From Symploca sp. SIO2E6 (GTDB lineage Bacteria > Cyanobacteriota > Cyanobacteriia > Cyanobacteriales > Coleofasciculaceae): a DNA stretch of 33,684 nucleotides. The position numbers were made by a program, and so were the translations under genes. Every line of letters starts with the position of its first letter. The stretch's first letter is position 1. The stretch spans positions 12,145 through 45,828 of the forward strand of contig JAAHGR010000015.1 of NCBI GenBank assembly GCA_010672425.1, read 5' to 3'. Shown in pieces: positions 5,393-33,515 of the stretch. The notes beneath the pieces are model-generated. The model saw nothing but the letters and a program-made list of their open reading frames with translations, had not been told where the DNA came from and did no database searches.

Positions 5393-5430
5393 CAATTTAA
5401 CAATTTAACAATTTAACAATTTAACAATTT
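5393..5430. repeat. 8-bp tandem array (CAATTTAA)
   Basis: There are four full copies and one partial copy of CAATTTAA, lying 60 bp upstream of the DUF3352 start. The rest of the 258 bp gap 5234-5491 shows no clear gene or operator. Confidence 0.9.
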
Positions 5431-7244: not shown

Positions 7245-7312
7245 AGATCCCCGACTTCTTTTTTCGGTTTGTCCCGTTAGTTAAACCTCTTCAACCGAGA
7301 AGTCGGGGATCT
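7245..7312. repeat. Inverted repeat with AGATCCCCGACTTCT arms (terminator-like)
   Basis: A perfect 15 bp arm at 7245-7259 (AGATCCCCGACTTCT) is complemented at 7298-7312, with a nested TCGGTT/AACCGA pair. This is a widespread cyanobacterial dispersed repeat and could end transcription from the DUF3352 gene. Directly after it lies a solo TACCAAATCCGC end (7315-7326) of the miniature element family seen complete at 16524 and 20076. Confidence 0.75.
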
Positions 7313-7341
7313 CATACCAAATCCGCTTATTCTACCCCCGA

Positions 7342-7394
7342 TAACAAATAACAAATAACAAATAACAAATAACCAACAACCAACAACCAACAAC
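7342..7394. repeat. Heptamer tandem array (TAACAAA/CAACCAA)
   Basis: Four copies of TAACAAA run into TAACCAA and two copies of CAACCAA. It ends at the 3' end of the polysaccharide export gene, whose stop codon is at 7398-7400. Confidence 0.9.
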
Positions 7395-7397
7395 ATT

Positions 7398-8528
7398 TCA
7401 ATTGAAAACATCAAAAAACCTGATGAAACTAAAGATATTGGCAAAGGGTTGAGTAATAAAATTAAGGGCAAAATTAAGCTGACCAATGAGGTTACGACCA
7501 ACAATGATCACATCGTTATCTTGGAGTGGAACATCTTGGGAAACATCACCCACAAGAGCAGCTTTGCCATTTAGTTGTTGGGTAACAGCTCTACCAGTTT
7601 CTGGATCAAAACGAATTAGGGCAATAGCATCGATCTTAACTCCATCAGGATTAGGAGAGATCGCGGTTAAAGCATCAACAAAGGTACTACCATTAGGCAA
7701 ATTTACGTTACCGATTCTCTCATTAGCGTAGCTCAAAACCCGGATATTGATTTGCTGCTGAGAAACATTAGAGCGAGAAATTAGGGTACGGTCATAATCA
7801 TTAGTTGTGCCAACCTCGATCTTCAACACAATCACCGCATCACCATCCTGAAGGCGCAAATCCGGTACACTTGTCCCATTTTGCAGGGCACTAAACAAGT
7901 CAAACTGTTGCTCGATAATGGAATTATCTGGTAAACGACGACGCACAACAATAGTTCGTAAGTCAGCTTCAGTTGTCGTACCACCAGCCTGTTGTAGGGC
8001 ATCAGGGAGTATCGTCCCCGCAGGGAGTGTATAATAACCTGGTTGAACTACCTCTCCCGTCATTGTTACCTTAGCTGGACGCAAACCTGCTAGTGCGACG
8101 ATCGCTTGAGGATCTACCACAAATTCATTCAAGCTAGCCTCAATTTTTTGTTTAACTTGTGCTAAGGTCAGTCCTAATACTGGTACTTTCCCTACCAACG
8201 GGATTAAGATATCTCCTCCAAGATCAACATCATCTTGAAAACTGAGATCGGGAAAGTTGAGTATCTGTACTTGAATCGAATCTCCTATTCCTAGGCGGTA
8301 GAGATTAAACTCAGAGGGTGAACTATTGCGAGGTGGTTGTTCTGGGTAACCCAGAGGCGGAATGGGATTATCAAAGTCCAAGTTATTAGGATTAAACGGT
8401 TCATCAGAAGAAAAAACCGGCACTTGAGCATAGCTGTTGGAAGGCAGAAGGCAGAAGGCAGAAGGCAGAATGTAGAATGTAGAATGTAGAATGCAGAATG
8501 TAGAATGTAGAATGTAGGAGATTCTCAT
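7398..8528 (-). CDS. Wza-like polysaccharide export protein with repeat-encoded N-terminus
   Basis: The protein has 376 residues. The body is a periplasmic polysaccharide export protein: the Poly_export region at about 74-150 (YRLGIGDSIQVQILNFPDLS, PLVGKVPVLGLTLAQV, L..FVVDPQ) followed by SLBB-type segments (VTMTGEVVQPGYYTLPAG; DALQQAGGTT). It should form or gate an outer-membrane channel for exopolysaccharide. Residues about 5-30 are encoded by eleven heptamers and read as repeated ILHSTFC/ILPSAFC blocks that nevertheless make a hydrophobic, signal-peptide-like stretch ending in SYAQ. No Shine-Dalgarno precedes the ATG; the upstream bases are another heptamer array. No other start fits before the conserved core. 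The next gene upstream, also minus strand, is exosortase-associated, which fits a shared envelope role. Confidence 0.85.
   Translation of the reverse strand: MRISYILHSTFCILHSTFYILPSAFCLLPSNSYAQVPVFSSDEPFNPNNLDFDNPIPPLGYPEQPPRNSSPSEFNLYRLGIGDSIQVQILNFPDLSFQDDVDLGGDILIPLVGKVPVLGLTLAQVKQKIEASLNEFVVDPQAIVALAGLRPAKVTMTGEVVQPGYYTLPAGTILPDALQQAGGTTTEADLRTIVVRRRLPDNSIIEQQFDLFSALQNGTSVPDLRLQDGDAVIVLKIEVGTTNDYDRTLISRSNVSQQQINIRVLSYANERIGNVNLPNGSTFVDALTAISPNPDGVKIDAIALIRFDPETGRAVTQQLNGKAALVGDVSQDVPLQDNDVIIVGRNLIGQLNFALNFITQPFANIFSFIRFFDVFN
8441..8517. repeat. Eleven-copy heptamer array inside the 5' end of the polysaccharide export gene
   Basis: On the + strand there are four copies of AAGGCAG followed by seven of AATGTAG (one of them AATGCAG). 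Seventy-seven bases is not a multiple of three, so the array is read in all three phases in turn and yields a seven-residue protein period. Gain or loss of one or two units would shift the reading frame of the gene. Confidence 0.95.
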
Positions 8529-8560
8529 AAGTAATAAGTAATAAGTAATAAGTAATAAGT
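8529..8560. repeat. Heptamer array (AAGTAAT) immediately upstream of the export gene start
   Basis: Four copies of AAGTAAT plus AAGT begin at the base next to the start codon of the polysaccharide export gene, taking the place of its ribosome binding site region. Confidence 0.9.
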
Positions 8561-8652: not shown

Positions 8653-9420
8653 TTACTCTTCCCTTGGTCTCCCAGCAAAAGGACCGGTCATCAGAGTTGA
8701 CTGAATCAATTTTCCTAGAGATTCTGCTTTTGGTAATGACTCTTCAATTTTACCTAAAGGTTCAATGGGGATTTGAAAGCAAACCGCAACCCAAGGTACT
8801 CTTCTACGACGCAACTGAGCAAGTTGATCACTCCAAAACCAATGGCTGGGAACAGAATAACCTCCTTCTGGTGAAGCATACCATTGCACCATCGCAAAAG
8901 TCTGCTGTCCATTCCAGGCGCGAAATAAACGTGCTCTTACCTGAGCCATCGAGGTTGTCGGTTCTGAGGTTTCAGCAGTAAACAAGAGTTTGGTGTAGGA
9001 ATCTGTCTTCCATTTCCCATTTATTTGTCTTCTGGCGTAGGTTTGAAAAAATCCGTTGATATCTGCCCACTCAACCTGTGGTTGTGACTTAGGACCATTT
9101 TGGGGAAGTAGCAGCAGAATCACTGGTTTTTGCTTGTCTTGCTGGATTGTCTGAAAAGACCATTTATTACCACCAATACTCAAGGTTATCTGTTCTAAGG
9201 TTTGCCAATCAGGAATCTCCAGTCCTTGGTTGCGGATAGCTTTGATTTGCTTAAGGTTCGTTACTGATGGTAGCTTTGCCCAAGGCCAGTTTCCCTTCCA
9301 GTAACCAGGTACTGCCCCAACTCCCACTAGGACTAACAAAAAACCTACTACAGCAATTCTGGAAAGATAGACGCGGAGACGCGGGGACGCGGGGACGCGG
9401 GGAGATTGATTTTCATGCAT
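8653..9420 (-). CDS. Cyanoexosortase system-associated protein (EpsI-like)
   Basis: The protein has 255 residues. A membrane segment at about 20-38 is followed by VPGYWKGNWPW and a periplasmic region with GLEIPDWQTLEQ, LSIGGNKWSFQ, ILLLLPQNGP, QVEWADINGFF and a late SHWFW segment. This arrangement is that of the EpsI-like proteins that accompany cyanoexosortases, membrane proteases that process and sort PEP-CTERM-type proteins to the cell surface. The exosortase itself is not in the window. Residues 5-17 (QSPRVPASPRLRV) are encoded by an 8-bp GC-rich tandem repeat, so the N-terminal extension is probably not conserved. The ATG overlaps the stop of the upstream permease gene by eight bases (ATGCATGA), which supports this start and translational coupling. 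Confidence 0.75.
   Translation of the reverse strand: MHENQSPRVPASPRLRVYLSRIAVVGFLLVLVGVGAVPGYWKGNWPWAKLPSVTNLKQIKAIRNQGLEIPDWQTLEQITLSIGGNKWSFQTIQQDKQKPVILLLLPQNGPKSQPQVEWADINGFFQTYARRQINGKWKTDSYTKLLFTAETSEPTTSMAQVRARLFRAWNGQQTFAMVQWYASPEGGYSVPSHWFWSDQLAQLRRRRVPWVAVCFQIPIEPLGKIEESLPKAESLGKLIQSTLMTGPFAGRPREE
9370..9401. repeat. 8-bp tandem repeat (GACGCGGG) in the 5' end of a CDS
   Basis: Four copies (the first ending in A instead of G) lie within the first 20 codons of the exosortase-associated gene. The same unit, inverted, occurs in non-coding sequence at 25493-25523. Confidence 0.9.
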
Positions 9421-25642: not shown

Positions 25643-26809
25643 GTGGTTTGGAAAATTCTTCCTTCAACTAAATCCCCAGGTGTAAGCTATCGAGAGCAAC
25701 TCACCCAATGGAAACAGCAAACTGTAACAAATTGGCCAAGGATACAAAAAATTACCCAACAGTTAGTACTAGCTATCTTGGCTGGCTTACTCTTCGATTG
25801 GCTGAATATTCCTGTCGGTTGGTTACTCGGTCCAATGATCATGGGTATAGTTTATGCAACTATCCAAGGTAGTCCCCAACCCCTGCCTCCTGTGTTTATG
25901 ACCCTGGGGAAAGCAACCATTGGCCTTGCTACTGCGGTTCGCTTTTCTCCAGAAACTCTTAGTGTAGCCATCACTTATGCTATTCCGATACTAGTATGTG
26001 TTCTACTCACAGGTAGCCTAAGTTTATTCCACGGTTACCTATTATCCCGCTGGGCTGGCATTGATCGCGTTACTGGTTTGTTAGCTTTTATACCTGGTGT
26101 CGCTTCTACGATTGTTGCTATCGGCGATGAAATGGGAGCTGATGCCATTTCTGTTGCTGTACTTCAGTATCTGCGAGTCTTATTAGTTGTTTTAGTTATA
26201 CCAAGTGCCGCAGGCTTAATTTTTCCAGCACATCCAGTTACCGAAGTTACAGCTAGTGTTGCCATCGATGGCCACTTGCCCATGCCCATGTGGTGCAACC
26301 TCTTGGTACTAGCTGGATGCTGTAGTGTGGGGATTTGGGGAGGGAAGCGACTGCGCTTGCCTGCAGCGGGACTTTTAGGCCCGATGATAGTAACCTTGGT
26401 AGCATTTTGGGAACTGCCATATCAAATACAAGTACCTCAATGGCTATTTGCTACGGGATTGTTATTTGTGGGAGTTTCTATTGGTTTTAAATTTAATCGG
26501 CAAGCTGCCCAAAAACTCTTGAAAGCAGTGTTAATCGAGGTGGGTTTGGTCTTGACACTCATTGTTCTTTGTTTAGGAGTTGGCTATGAATTCCACGTAC
26601 TCACCCAAGTTGACACCATCACCTCGGTTTTAGGATTCACTCCTGGGGGAATTGAAGCCATGATTGCCACTGTGATGCAGCTGGGTGGTGATCCTGGATT
26701 AGTGCTGGCAATGCAAATGTCTCGCATGTTAATGATTATTTTGCTCGGACCATGGTTAGTGACTTTTTTGATCAAAACTGGGAAAGGAGAATTGAGAATT
26801 GAGAATTGA
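25643..26809 (+). CDS. AbrB-family integral membrane protein (AbrB duplication family)
   Basis: The protein has 388 residues and about ten hydrophobic segments. Two similar halves each contain a GWLLGPMI or GLLGPMI motif and a segment like LGFTPGG or LAFIPGVAS followed by an acidic residue (IEAMIA; GDEMGADA). This is the membrane AbrB duplication family, annotated as regulator of AidB expression or ammonia monooxygenase-like, and not the SpoVT-AbrB DNA-binding family. Its transport substrate is unknown. The only start that fits is GTG 25643; no ATG occurs before the first membrane helix and no clear ribosome binding site is present. The last residues (GELRIEN) and the stop are encoded by GAGAATT heptamers, so the native C-terminus has probably been replaced. 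Confidence 0.8.
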   Translation: MVWKILPSTKSPGVSYREQLTQWKQQTVTNWPRIQKITQQLVLAILAGLLFDWLNIPVGWLLGPMIMGIVYATIQGSPQPLPPVFMTLGKATIGLATAVRFSPETLSVAITYAIPILVCVLLTGSLSLFHGYLLSRWAGIDRVTGLLAFIPGVASTIVAIGDEMGADAISVAVLQYLRVLLVVLVIPSAAGLIFPAHPVTEVTASVAIDGHLPMPMWCNLLVLAGCCSVGIWGGKRLRLPAAGLLGPMIVTLVAFWELPYQIQVPQWLFATGLLFVGVSIGFKFNRQAAQKLLKAVLIEVGLVLTLIVLCLGVGYEFHVLTQVDTITSVLGFTPGGIEAMIATVMQLGGDPGLVLAMQMSRMLMIILLGPWLVTFLIKTGKGELRIEN

Positions 26810-26866
26810 GAATGGGGAATTCCCAATTCCCCATTCCCAATTCCCCATTCCCCATTCTAAATTCCC
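26789..26866. repeat. Heptamer array in both orientations between the AbrB-type gene and dusB
   Basis: GAGAATT repeats run into a GGGGAATTCCCAATTCCCC hairpin and then CCCATTC/CCCAATT units. The array spans the end of the AbrB-type gene and stops one base before the dusB ATG. It may form a hairpin between the two genes. Confidence 0.9.
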
Positions 26867-26867
26867 A

Positions 26868-27875
26868 ATGTCCCATTACTCCCCCAAATTGCAACAAAGA
26901 CTCACTACTCCCCTCAAGATTGGCTCCGTTGAAGTCAACAGCCGAGTTTTACAATCACCCCTATCTGGAGTCACGGATTTAGTGTTTCGCCGACTAGTGC
27001 GGCGTTATGCTCCAGAATCGATGATGTACACAGAGATGGTACATGCCTCAGGACTGTGTCATGCTAAAGAATTACCTAAGATTATGGAAGTAGACCCCAA
27101 CGAAAAACCCATTAGTATCCAATTGTTTGACTGTCGTCCCCATTTCTTAGCAGAAGCAGCCCAAAAAGCTGTAGCTGAAGGAGCAGATACAGTAGATATC
27201 AATATGGGTTGCCCTGTCAACAAAATTACCAAAAAAGGTGGCGGTTCTTCCCTCTTGCGGCAACCAGAAATTGCTGAGGCAATTGTGCGTACTGTAGTCG
27301 AGGCGGTTCGAGTACCTGTAACCGTGAAAACCAGAATTGGTTGGAATGATGATGAAATCAATATTCTGGAATTTGCTCAACGGCTCGAAGATGCGGGAGC
27401 ACAAATGCTAACTTTGCATGGACGCACGAGAGCTCAGGGTTATAATGGTTCTGCTAGGTGGGAGTGGATTGGACGAGTGAAGGAAATTCTCTCGATTCCA
27501 GTTATTGCTAATGGGGATATCTTTTCTGTAGAAGCAGCACTCAAATGTCTAGAAGAGACTGGAGCCGATGGAGTAATGTGTTCCCGGGGAACCCTAGGCT
27601 ATCCCTTTTTAGTAGGAGAAATCGACCATTTTCTGAAAACGGGACAAAAGCTAACACCGCCAACAACAGTGACCAGACTCCTGTGTGCCCGAGAACATCT
27701 ACAAGCTCTCTGGGAGTATAAAGGCGATCGCGGTATTCGTCAAGCCAGAAAACACCTGGCTTGGTATTCCAAAGGTTTTCCTGGTGCAGCGGAATTACGC
27801 CAGCAGTTAAGCAGGGTTGAGACAGTGGAACAAGGTGTAGAGTTAATTAATCAAGCTATTGTAGGTTGGGTTTAA
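26868..27875 (+). CDS. dusB: tRNA-dihydrouridine synthase (DusB type)
   Basis: The enzyme reduces uridine to dihydrouridine in tRNA with FMN and NADPH. It has 335 residues. Family motifs are PLSGVTDLVFRRLVRRYAPE, TEMVHASGL, IQLFDCRP, the catalytic cysteine in DINMGCPVNKITKKGGGSSL, VTVKTRIGW, LTLHGRTRAQGYNG, VIANGDI and the phosphate-binding GVMCSRGTLGYPFL. The frame is open upstream to 26799, but those 23 residues come from the heptamer array, so ATG 26868 is preferred. No Shine-Dalgarno precedes it. The product is complete. Confidence 0.93.
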   Translation: MSHYSPKLQQRLTTPLKIGSVEVNSRVLQSPLSGVTDLVFRRLVRRYAPESMMYTEMVHASGLCHAKELPKIMEVDPNEKPISIQLFDCRPHFLAEAAQKAVAEGADTVDINMGCPVNKITKKGGGSSLLRQPEIAEAIVRTVVEAVRVPVTVKTRIGWNDDEINILEFAQRLEDAGAQMLTLHGRTRAQGYNGSARWEWIGRVKEILSIPVIANGDIFSVEAALKCLEETGADGVMCSRGTLGYPFLVGEIDHFLKTGQKLTPPTTVTRLLCAREHLQALWEYKGDRGIRQARKHLAWYSKGFPGAAELRQQLSRVETVEQGVELINQAIVGWV

Positions 27876-31619: not shown

Positions 31620-31779
31620 CAGTTATTGAGAATGTAGAATTTAGAATGAGTGAATTTATAATTAATATTGTAACACTGGGTAGTCCCCGGCTCTAAGCCG
31701 GTATACACTGGCAATAGGAAGATAGGAAGATAGGAAGATAGGGAGACAAGGACAACAAGGGAGATATTGACAATTTTCC

Positions 31780-31849
31780 ATTCCCAATTCCCAATTCCCA
31801 ATTCCCAATTCCCAATTCCCAATTCCCAATTCCCAATTCTCAATTCTCA
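31780..31849. repeat. Heptamer array (TTCCCAA), left of the SLH gene
   Basis: About nine copies of TTCCCAA end inside the last codons of the SLH lipoprotein gene. The unit is the complement of the GGGAATT unit at 33217-33340, so the gene lies between inverted arrays. To the left (31716-31745) are AGGAAGAT repeats. Confidence 0.9.
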
Positions 31850-33159
31850 AACGAGTTGAGTTTCTGTGCTTCAGAAGCAGATATGCCTTCTCCTTGGGAA
31901 CCGATATACCAAAGTACTGCTGCTGTCTCAGCGCGAGTCACTGCTTTCTTCGGCTGGAATAAGGTGGTATAACCTAACAAGCGGCGGATATTGGCAGATT
32001 CTCCATTTTGGAAATCGGCTAATACGGCTCGCAATGCCTTAGGATCAATTTTGGCAGTATCCTGAAAACCCCAAGTTTGCTCAACTGCTTCAACTGAAGC
32101 TTTAGGTAATACCTGACGGGTGTCTAGAGGGACTTTCCACAAGATAAGATTTTCCCTAGTTAAGGGAGCATCTGGACGAAAGGTTACTGCTGTAGCGTTA
32201 CCACTCAGAGGACTAGAAATCAATCCTGCTTCTGCTAAGGCTTGAATACTGGGGAAATCGGGATCAGTGCTGGGTACATCTTGGAAAGCTGGCTTAGCTG
32301 TTGCTGAAGCTAGACGAATTTGCTTTCCTGGACTGTTAGTATGCAGCTGATTATTCGCCGCTACTAACCACCGCGCATAGTCGCGACGGTTGATGGTTTG
32401 ATTCGGTTCAAATTTTTTGCTACTCTGAGTATCTGGGTTATCTTCAGAGTTAGATGCCTCAACGGTTAATACTCCCAAAGCTGCCAAATCCTCGATGTAC
32501 TGACGCAATTGTTGGGGAACTTGGTCAAGGTCACTGAAATCCTGCGATTCTGTTGAAGATTTCTGGGGTTCTTCTGGTTCTGAGTCAGGTTGCTGTTGTG
32601 GTTCCTCTGGTTCTGAGTCAGATTTCTGTGCTGTTGCTGGCTCGGTATTAGGGGTATACTTAATGGCAAATTCTGTCAAGCTGCGGTTGGTTTCAGTTAC
32701 TGGTTGAGAGTTGTTATTGCGATCATACGGAATCGATACCGTAACTTCCCACTCCTGATTACTAGCAACAAAAGTACCCTCAGCATCCTCTTGTGGTTCA
32801 GAGATAATTTTCCAGTTATTGGACTCGAAGGCTTCTTGGTAAAAGCTCAGGATAAAATTGGTGGGGTCAGAGGATGACCAAATCGTCAGCTTACCTGGAG
32901 TTTCTGCTTCCTTGAGAGACTCAACTTTCTCTAACTGAGCCTGAGGATAACGCATCTGGGAAGGAAAATCCTGAGGTAATTGCTCTGATTTTGATATCTG
33001 AGAGTCGCTGGTAGCTGACTCAGCAGATATACTTTGCTTATCTTGGAGATTAGGGTCTGCGGCAAAGAAACGCTCAAATTCTTTGCTACAAGAGGTTAAC
33101 AAACTCAGTAGGCAAGTAGCTACAATAGCAAATCGGCCAGGATGTTGATCGAACAGCAC
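31840..33159 (-). CDS. S-layer-homology domain lipoprotein
   Basis: The protein has 439 residues. A signal sequence ends in a lipobox (LLTSC, C24), so it should be lipid-anchored in the envelope. Residues about 70-165 form an unnamed region common to cyanobacterial members ([20 protein letters not shown]). A low-complexity linker with repeated SEPEEPQ follows (about 180-205). Then come SLH-like repeats: [11 protein letters not shown]...[43 protein letters not shown]...[17 protein letters not shown], and a last copy with [23 protein letters not shown] repeats bind cell-wall polymers and link the outer layers to peptidoglycan. The last residues (LNSFEN) and the stop lie in the heptamer array, so the C-terminus is repeat-derived. 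Confidence 0.85.
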
Positions 33160-33216
33160 AGGTTTTCTAGAGCAAGGATCTCAACTCCTAAGCTAACGCA
33201 AATTGGGGGGAATGGG

Positions 33217-33340
33217 GGATTGGGAATTGAGAATTGAGAATTGGGAATTGGGAATTGGGAATTGGGAATTGGGAATTGGGAATTGAGAATTGGGAATTGG
33301 GAATTGGGAATTGGGAATTGGGAATTGAGAATTGGGAATT
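33217..33340. repeat. Heptamer array (GGGAATT/GAGAATT), right of the SLH gene
   Basis: About 17 copies run without interruption, followed by CCTTGTCTT 9-mers (33343-33380) and CCACACTCC-type repeats (33381-33415). The 356 bp gap 33160-33515 is almost all simple repeat; small frames across it are repeat-derived and not genes. Confidence 0.95.
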
Positions 33341-33515
33341 TCTTCCTTGTCTCCCTTGTCTTCCTTGTCTTCCTTGTCTTCCCACACTCCCCACACCTCC
33401 CACACTCTCCACACTACTAGTAGTATTGTGTAGGGACGCGCCTGCCTTTATCATGCGGTGTAGAGATATTGGCGGTGTCTTTATTGATGATCGCAGTAAC
33501 GTTGCGGAGAAATAG

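Follow-up and report, generated by a model that had tools for sequence, protein, structure and literature searches.

In the marine filamentous cyanobacterium Symploca sp. SIO2E6, the export signal of a polysaccharide exporter appears to be written in a 7-letter DNA repeat, which looks like settled coding sequence with no switching seen. Comparison of sequences suggests that a dispersed heptamer repeat of the STRR type probably came to serve as the 5' end of the coding sequence in an ancestor of the genus, and that it now encodes a Sec signal peptide. The window analysed was a stretch of 33,684 nucleotides, in which the exporter locus comprises the following features.

7398..8528, minus strand: polysaccharide export protein of the Wza/OPX type, 376 aa, ATG start (open reading frame, Pfam and Wza chains in the PDB)
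8526..8528, minus strand: ATG start of the exporter, common to all three Symploca genes (alignment)
8440..8516, minus strand: coding array of 11 units over codons 5-30, the putative signal-peptide region (unit parse and TRF; collinear over eight units with both sister genomes)
8440..8467, minus strand: four TGCCTTC units, of which the sister genomes lack three (unit parse and alignment)
8424..8435, minus strand: SYAQ, a candidate signal-peptidase site at which the cut would fall between SYA and Q (sequence; SYAQ or NYAQ in both sister genes too)
8527..8560, minus strand: 4.9 copies of TACTTAT on the coding strand, 5' untranslated and abutting the ATG, length not conserved (TRF and alignment)
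7341..7395, strand unassigned: heptamer array of 7.9 copies of ATAACAA just past the exporter stop codon, where the synteny block ends (TRF)

The exporter and its heptamer-coded N-terminus

The predicted protein contains a Poly_export domain (PF02563, residues 77-146, 60.9 bits against a cutoff of 28) and an SLBB domain (PF10531, residues 153-234, 58.9 bits against a cutoff of 27), the two domains required of OPX/Wza family members. Its best solved relatives are Wza chains (PDB; best E 7.9e-17).

Nucleotides 13-89 of the gene as assembled (window 8516-8440) were parsed into 11 consecutive 7-nt units. On the coding strand these run as three TACATTC, one TGCATTC, three TACATTC and four TGCCTTC, and the array is covered by three overlapping TRF rows with scores of 87, 102 and 95. 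The longest pure period-7 run within it is 31 bp; as shuffling the bases of the 1.2-kb region 300 times gave a maximum of 17 bp, the array is not attributable to chance. A run of 31 bp is also the median of the 201 pure period-7 runs of at least 21 bp in 800 kb of Symploca sp. SIO1C2.

The original prediction was of 11 seven-bp units over codons 5-30 that encode a signal-like N-terminus. The unit parse and TRF confirmed the former, and the translation, which ends in SNSYAQ, agreed with the latter. On this sequence the array-coded peptide would be a cleaved signal, cut at the candidate site listed above. The most hydrophobic 15-mer in the first 40 residues has a hydropathy of 1.46, compared with 1.33-2.21 in five ordinary orthologues; hydropathy alone is no proof of a signal, because the mature part of the exporter holds a more hydrophobic 15-mer (1.88). 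A lipoprotein signal was considered and rejected, no lipobox being visible by eye.

The way in which heptamers are translated suggests how such a peptide may arise. Computed translations indicate that a stop-free heptamer array reads as one cyclic heptapeptide, identical in all three frames because 7 leaves a remainder of 1 on division by 3. Peptides from the pyrimidine-rich strand are hydrophobic (CATTCTA gives HSTFYIL and CCTTCTG gives PSAFCLL), and the opposite strand of these heptamers gives stops or charged peptides. Since the same peptide is read in every frame, slippage within the array yields a similar peptide and affects the frame of exit alone. A stop-free heptamer array with its pyrimidine-rich strand beside a gene as coding strand would be a ready-made hydrophobic stretch, to which no more than an ATG and an exit in the right frame need be added. 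Following capture, the reading frame would hold the unit number, so that units would be kept or changed in threes.

Comparison with sister genomes and other orthologues

Full-length matches to the exporter were found in Symploca sp. SIO1C2 (G004) and SIO2C1 (G005), with 83-84% identity. The N-termini of these orthologues, which read MKISYILHSTFLILHSSFSLLPSIALA..NYAQ in SIO1C2 and MRIFCLLPSTFCILHSTFSFLPSIALA..SYAQ in SIO2C1, are also heptamer-encoded, but are shorter and more degenerate than that of the window. The start codon and the first eight units (codons 1-23) align without gaps across the three genomes, and the reading frame is kept in all three copies. Past unit eight, a hand alignment gave the window copy three additional TGCCTTC units (21 nt) and a loss of approximately 30 nt, which encode IALA..EVQ in the sisters. 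The distance to SYAQ is 9 nt shorter in the window copy (net -9 nt), the gain and the loss each being a multiple of three. This frame-keeping is weak evidence, as it concerns one inferred length difference in three genomes and would be expected by chance in about 1 case in 3.

In codons 1-23 the three Symploca pairs differ at 10, 10 and 13 of 69 nucleotides, and in the mature part at 161 and 145 of 1023 and 180 of 1029. The upstream spacer barely aligns among the three genomes and holds different arrays. The coding array has thus diverged roughly like the rest of the gene while the spacer barely aligns, which argues that it evolves as coding sequence and not as a freely slipping tract. Ratios of amino-acid-changing to silent codons were 5:2, 6:3 and 8:3 in codons 1-23, and 50:86, 50:77 and 70:82 in the mature part. 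The excess of changing over silent codons in the former indicates that length and hydrophobic character have been kept there, and not sequence. Signal peptides usually keep their character rather than their sequence.

A search of the family returned orthologue-level matches in 17 of 20 genomes, and in an order-wide search of 148 genomes a threshold of E <= 1e-90 was passed by 30. The orthologous loci compared numbered 47, with 17 from the family, 24 from the order-wide search and six from named contigs. A 7-bp periodic signal region was present in three of these, all Symploca (SIO2E6, SIO1C2 and SIO2C1), and a heptamer-coded signal region in none of the remaining 44; the open region was too short to show a signal at L233, L245 and L042. 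Periodic DNA lies just before the likely start at seven further loci of the 47, and two more have a periodic linker behind the signal (one 7-bp, one 8-bp). By eye, no array-coded signal peptide was seen in seven paralogous loci (L131-L133 in SIO2E6, L136 and L139 in SIO1C2, L137 and L138 in SIO2C1), a reading that covered these seven, with weaker paralogue matches outside it. At the paralogous exporter L133:634-800 (contig G000:C851 of SIO2E6), a long heptamer array runs into the first three codons.

Expression, phase variation and the choice of start codon

The TACTTAT array upstream of the exporter is pure over 34 bp (100% match) and extends over the first two ATG bases; given its position before the start codon, it is incapable of changing the frame. 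It had been predicted that these upstream heptamers replace the ribosome binding site. The array does abut the ATG, but no replaced site was seen: AGGA, GGAG and GAGG were looked for in the 25 nt before the common ATG and occur in none of the three Symploca genes, and the array itself is not conserved. It is unlikely that expression is tuned by this array, via promoter spacing or the 5' untranslated region, and that the coding array is incidental, although the purity of the upstream array, its contact with the ATG and its variation across the three genomes would suit such a role. The model for such tuning is Haemophilus influenzae hmw1A, where, in the available text of PMC8262952, 7-bp tandem units comparable with the 8527-8560 array stand 5' of a surface-protein gene, and unit number in the promoter alters expression. 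The hmw1A heptamers differ from the exporter coding array in that they lie upstream of the coding region, in 14 to 24 units with a demonstrated effect at the transcript level. TAACTGA repeats of Beggiatoaceae and cyanobacteria, for which a translational role near start codons has been proposed, likewise stand directly before an ATG with no Shine-Dalgarno sequence, but are of another unit and mostly non-coding (excerpts of PMC4679880). Against tuning, SIO1C2 has no more than a short, degenerate form of the TACTTAT array and SIO2C1 has none, so that it is not a conserved control element.

Switching of the exporter through slipped-strand events that add or remove one or two heptamers within the signal codons, as occurs with the pentamers of Neisseria opa, is less probable again. 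The architecture is the same in both cases: in opa, which encodes an outer-membrane protein, the CTCTT repeats lie among the codons for the leader peptide (PMC3745409, in part), and the exporter array, too, has a unit length indivisible by three within the 5' coding region. The gene is predicted from its sequence to act in surface polysaccharide export, and the window array exceeds its sister counterparts in purity and length, with a longest pure run of 31 bp against 23 and 20 bp. When unit changes were simulated in silico, adding or removing one or two units gave products of 36-83 aa and a change of three kept the exporter, in line with the original prediction that one or two units break the frame and three do not. 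The on/off switching proposed on that basis found no support. Both sister orthologues keep the reading frame and share the first eight units of the window copy, no out-of-frame exporter copy was found among the three Symploca genomes, and no other-frame start lies upstream to restore reading after a slip. The array is also interrupted and lacks the long pure tract of an opa-type phase-variable locus, its pure run amounting to 4 units compared with the 14 to 24 heptamers of the variable hmw1A promoter (PMC8262952, available text). The opa pentamers switch at approximately 1e-3 per cell per generation, according to the same portion of PMC3745409, whereas the exporter has interrupted heptamers in which no variation was seen. 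A search of the open-access literature found no report of phase variation by cyanobacterial heptamers, which is a weak negative. Phase variation was rejected as the main explanation because no variant was seen, the array is interrupted and its units are collinear in the sisters.

There is little chance that the start has been misplaced, such that the array is open 5' untranslated DNA and translation begins downstream of it. This is the commonest picture in comparable cases: read by eye, six other long open frames among the array matches listed show a plausible ATG that the array adjoins or stops short of, and in the Dus gene at 26799 the array is followed by MSHYSPK. At the exporter, however, another in-frame ATG is met only after 125 codons, where it falls within the export domain; the sole near alternative is a GTG five codons past the array, which would leave no signal, and the upstream ATG and the collinear codons are common to the three genomes. 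The GTG could in principle start a leaderless protein. A start downstream of the array was rejected, no in-frame ATG lying between array and domain. Least credible of all is an assembly error in repeat copy number. The SIO2E6 source assembly (G000) is fragmented (1437 contigs), but an array of matching design occupies the corresponding position in two sister assemblies, and the exporter frame is open.

Dispersed repeats and array-derived N-termini

The exporter array is a coding case of an STRR-type repeat rather than a typical member. It resembles the STRR repeats of filamentous cyanobacteria (Calothrix, Nostoc/Anabaena), which have 7-bp units and are dispersed and, as a group, mostly intergenic; three tandem heptanucleotides are cited for Calothrix PCC 7601, and 68% of the G-rich heptamer repeats of Nostoc PCC 7120 are intergenic (available sections of PMC4692102). 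The array shares with them the 7-bp tandem unit and the dispersed copies, these being evident from the searches described below. It departs from their mainly intergenic position, as it is coding and keeps its frame in three genomes, and the same sections of PMC4692102 describe no signal-peptide-coding repeat.

A 1-kb query of the exporter region gave 54 matches in SIO2E6, mostly to the repeat stretches of the query. In 800 kb of SIO1C2, TRF reported 254 rows with a period of 7 or 8 (overlaps unmerged, positions relative to mechanical ORFs of at least 100 aa). These comprised 198 intergenic rows, 16 in the first 60 codons, 26 internal and 14 near an ORF end. With 198 of 254 rows intergenic, coding use is exceptional. 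The 16 early-codon rows belong to 13 ORFs, the majority of which are short or have an ATG immediately behind the array.

One of the 13 is a conserved FMN-dependent dehydrogenase with array-coded first codons (SIO1C2, L157:521-1633). The dehydrogenase was matched in four of the five genomes searched, and its N-terminus is repetitive and of differing length in all four (L157, L249, L250 and L251). Some of the repeat units contain ATG, giving starts in all three frames from successive units. A further gene with an array at its 5' end is the upstream neighbour of the exporter.

8653..9420, minus strand: cyanoexosortase B system-associated protein (TIGR04533), upstream neighbour of the exporter (NCBIfam E 5.8e-87)
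9370..9403, minus strand: 8-bp array of 4.2 copies over approximately codons 6-18 of the neighbour (TRF; N-terminus of the sister genes unrelated there)

The TIGR04533 gene is directly upstream of the exporter in both sister genomes too. Elsewhere in SIO2E6, an AraC-type gene (L128:2553-2969, minus strand) has its C-terminal half only, the N-terminal half having been lost at an array (2916-2963); longer AraC-type copies are present in SIO1C2, SIO2C1 and genome G012. The heptamer array joins the AraC-type remnant to the end of an upstream ORF, which we take to be sugar-kinase-like.

Arrays rewrite the 5' ends of several Symploca genes, a pattern that comes from few cases and is not a rate. With array-derived 5' ends in the neighbour and in two genes elsewhere, the wider story is one of repeats rewriting N-termini and not of a demonstrated switch. 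More tentatively, short tandem arrays may be an evolving source of N-termini in the genus: rearrangement or expansion would remove an old 5' end and supply a start and a frame-independent peptide, which, depending on unit and strand, would be a hydrophobic signal, a charged lead or a polar tail. The exporter would then be an old, settled case and the TIGR04533 gene a recent one, with the FMN-dependent dehydrogenase and the truncated AraC-type regulator as others.

The window holds 13 merged arrays, 11 of them of period 7 or 8. Two of these 11, the exporter array and 33208-33382, have both flanks in a sister locus, the other nine lying at synteny ends; units are present at the exporter array in both sisters, and at 33208-33382 in SIO1C2 only, where they are fewer. 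Gene order is scrambled relative to SIO1C2 and SIO2C1, and 7/8-bp arrays fill three tight junctions of blocks that lie on different SIO1C2 contigs (7312-7379, 26785-26818 and 31709-31853). The exporter synteny block stops beside the octamer array 9370-9403 (junction at 9367-9403), and other junctions are without such an array. Another array (26787-26875) lies between a membrane-protein gene and the Dus gene; the mechanical Dus ORF includes it, and the MSHYSPK that follows looks like the true start. Further 7/8-bp arrays lie at 5393-5430, 31780-31850 and 33208-33340, one with 19 copies (TRF).

The locus offers a concrete test of whether cyanobacterial heptamers slip at meaningful rates, and a demonstration of switching would add a free-living cyanobacterium to the bacteria with phase-variable surface polysaccharide. 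If the origin of the exporter signal from a captured repeat is true, the gene would illustrate clearly how repeat DNA from between genes can be turned into a working targeting signal and afterwards be held by the reading frame. The rule that an array of 7-bp units encodes one peptide whichever frame is read may help to explain why repeats are tolerated at gene starts.
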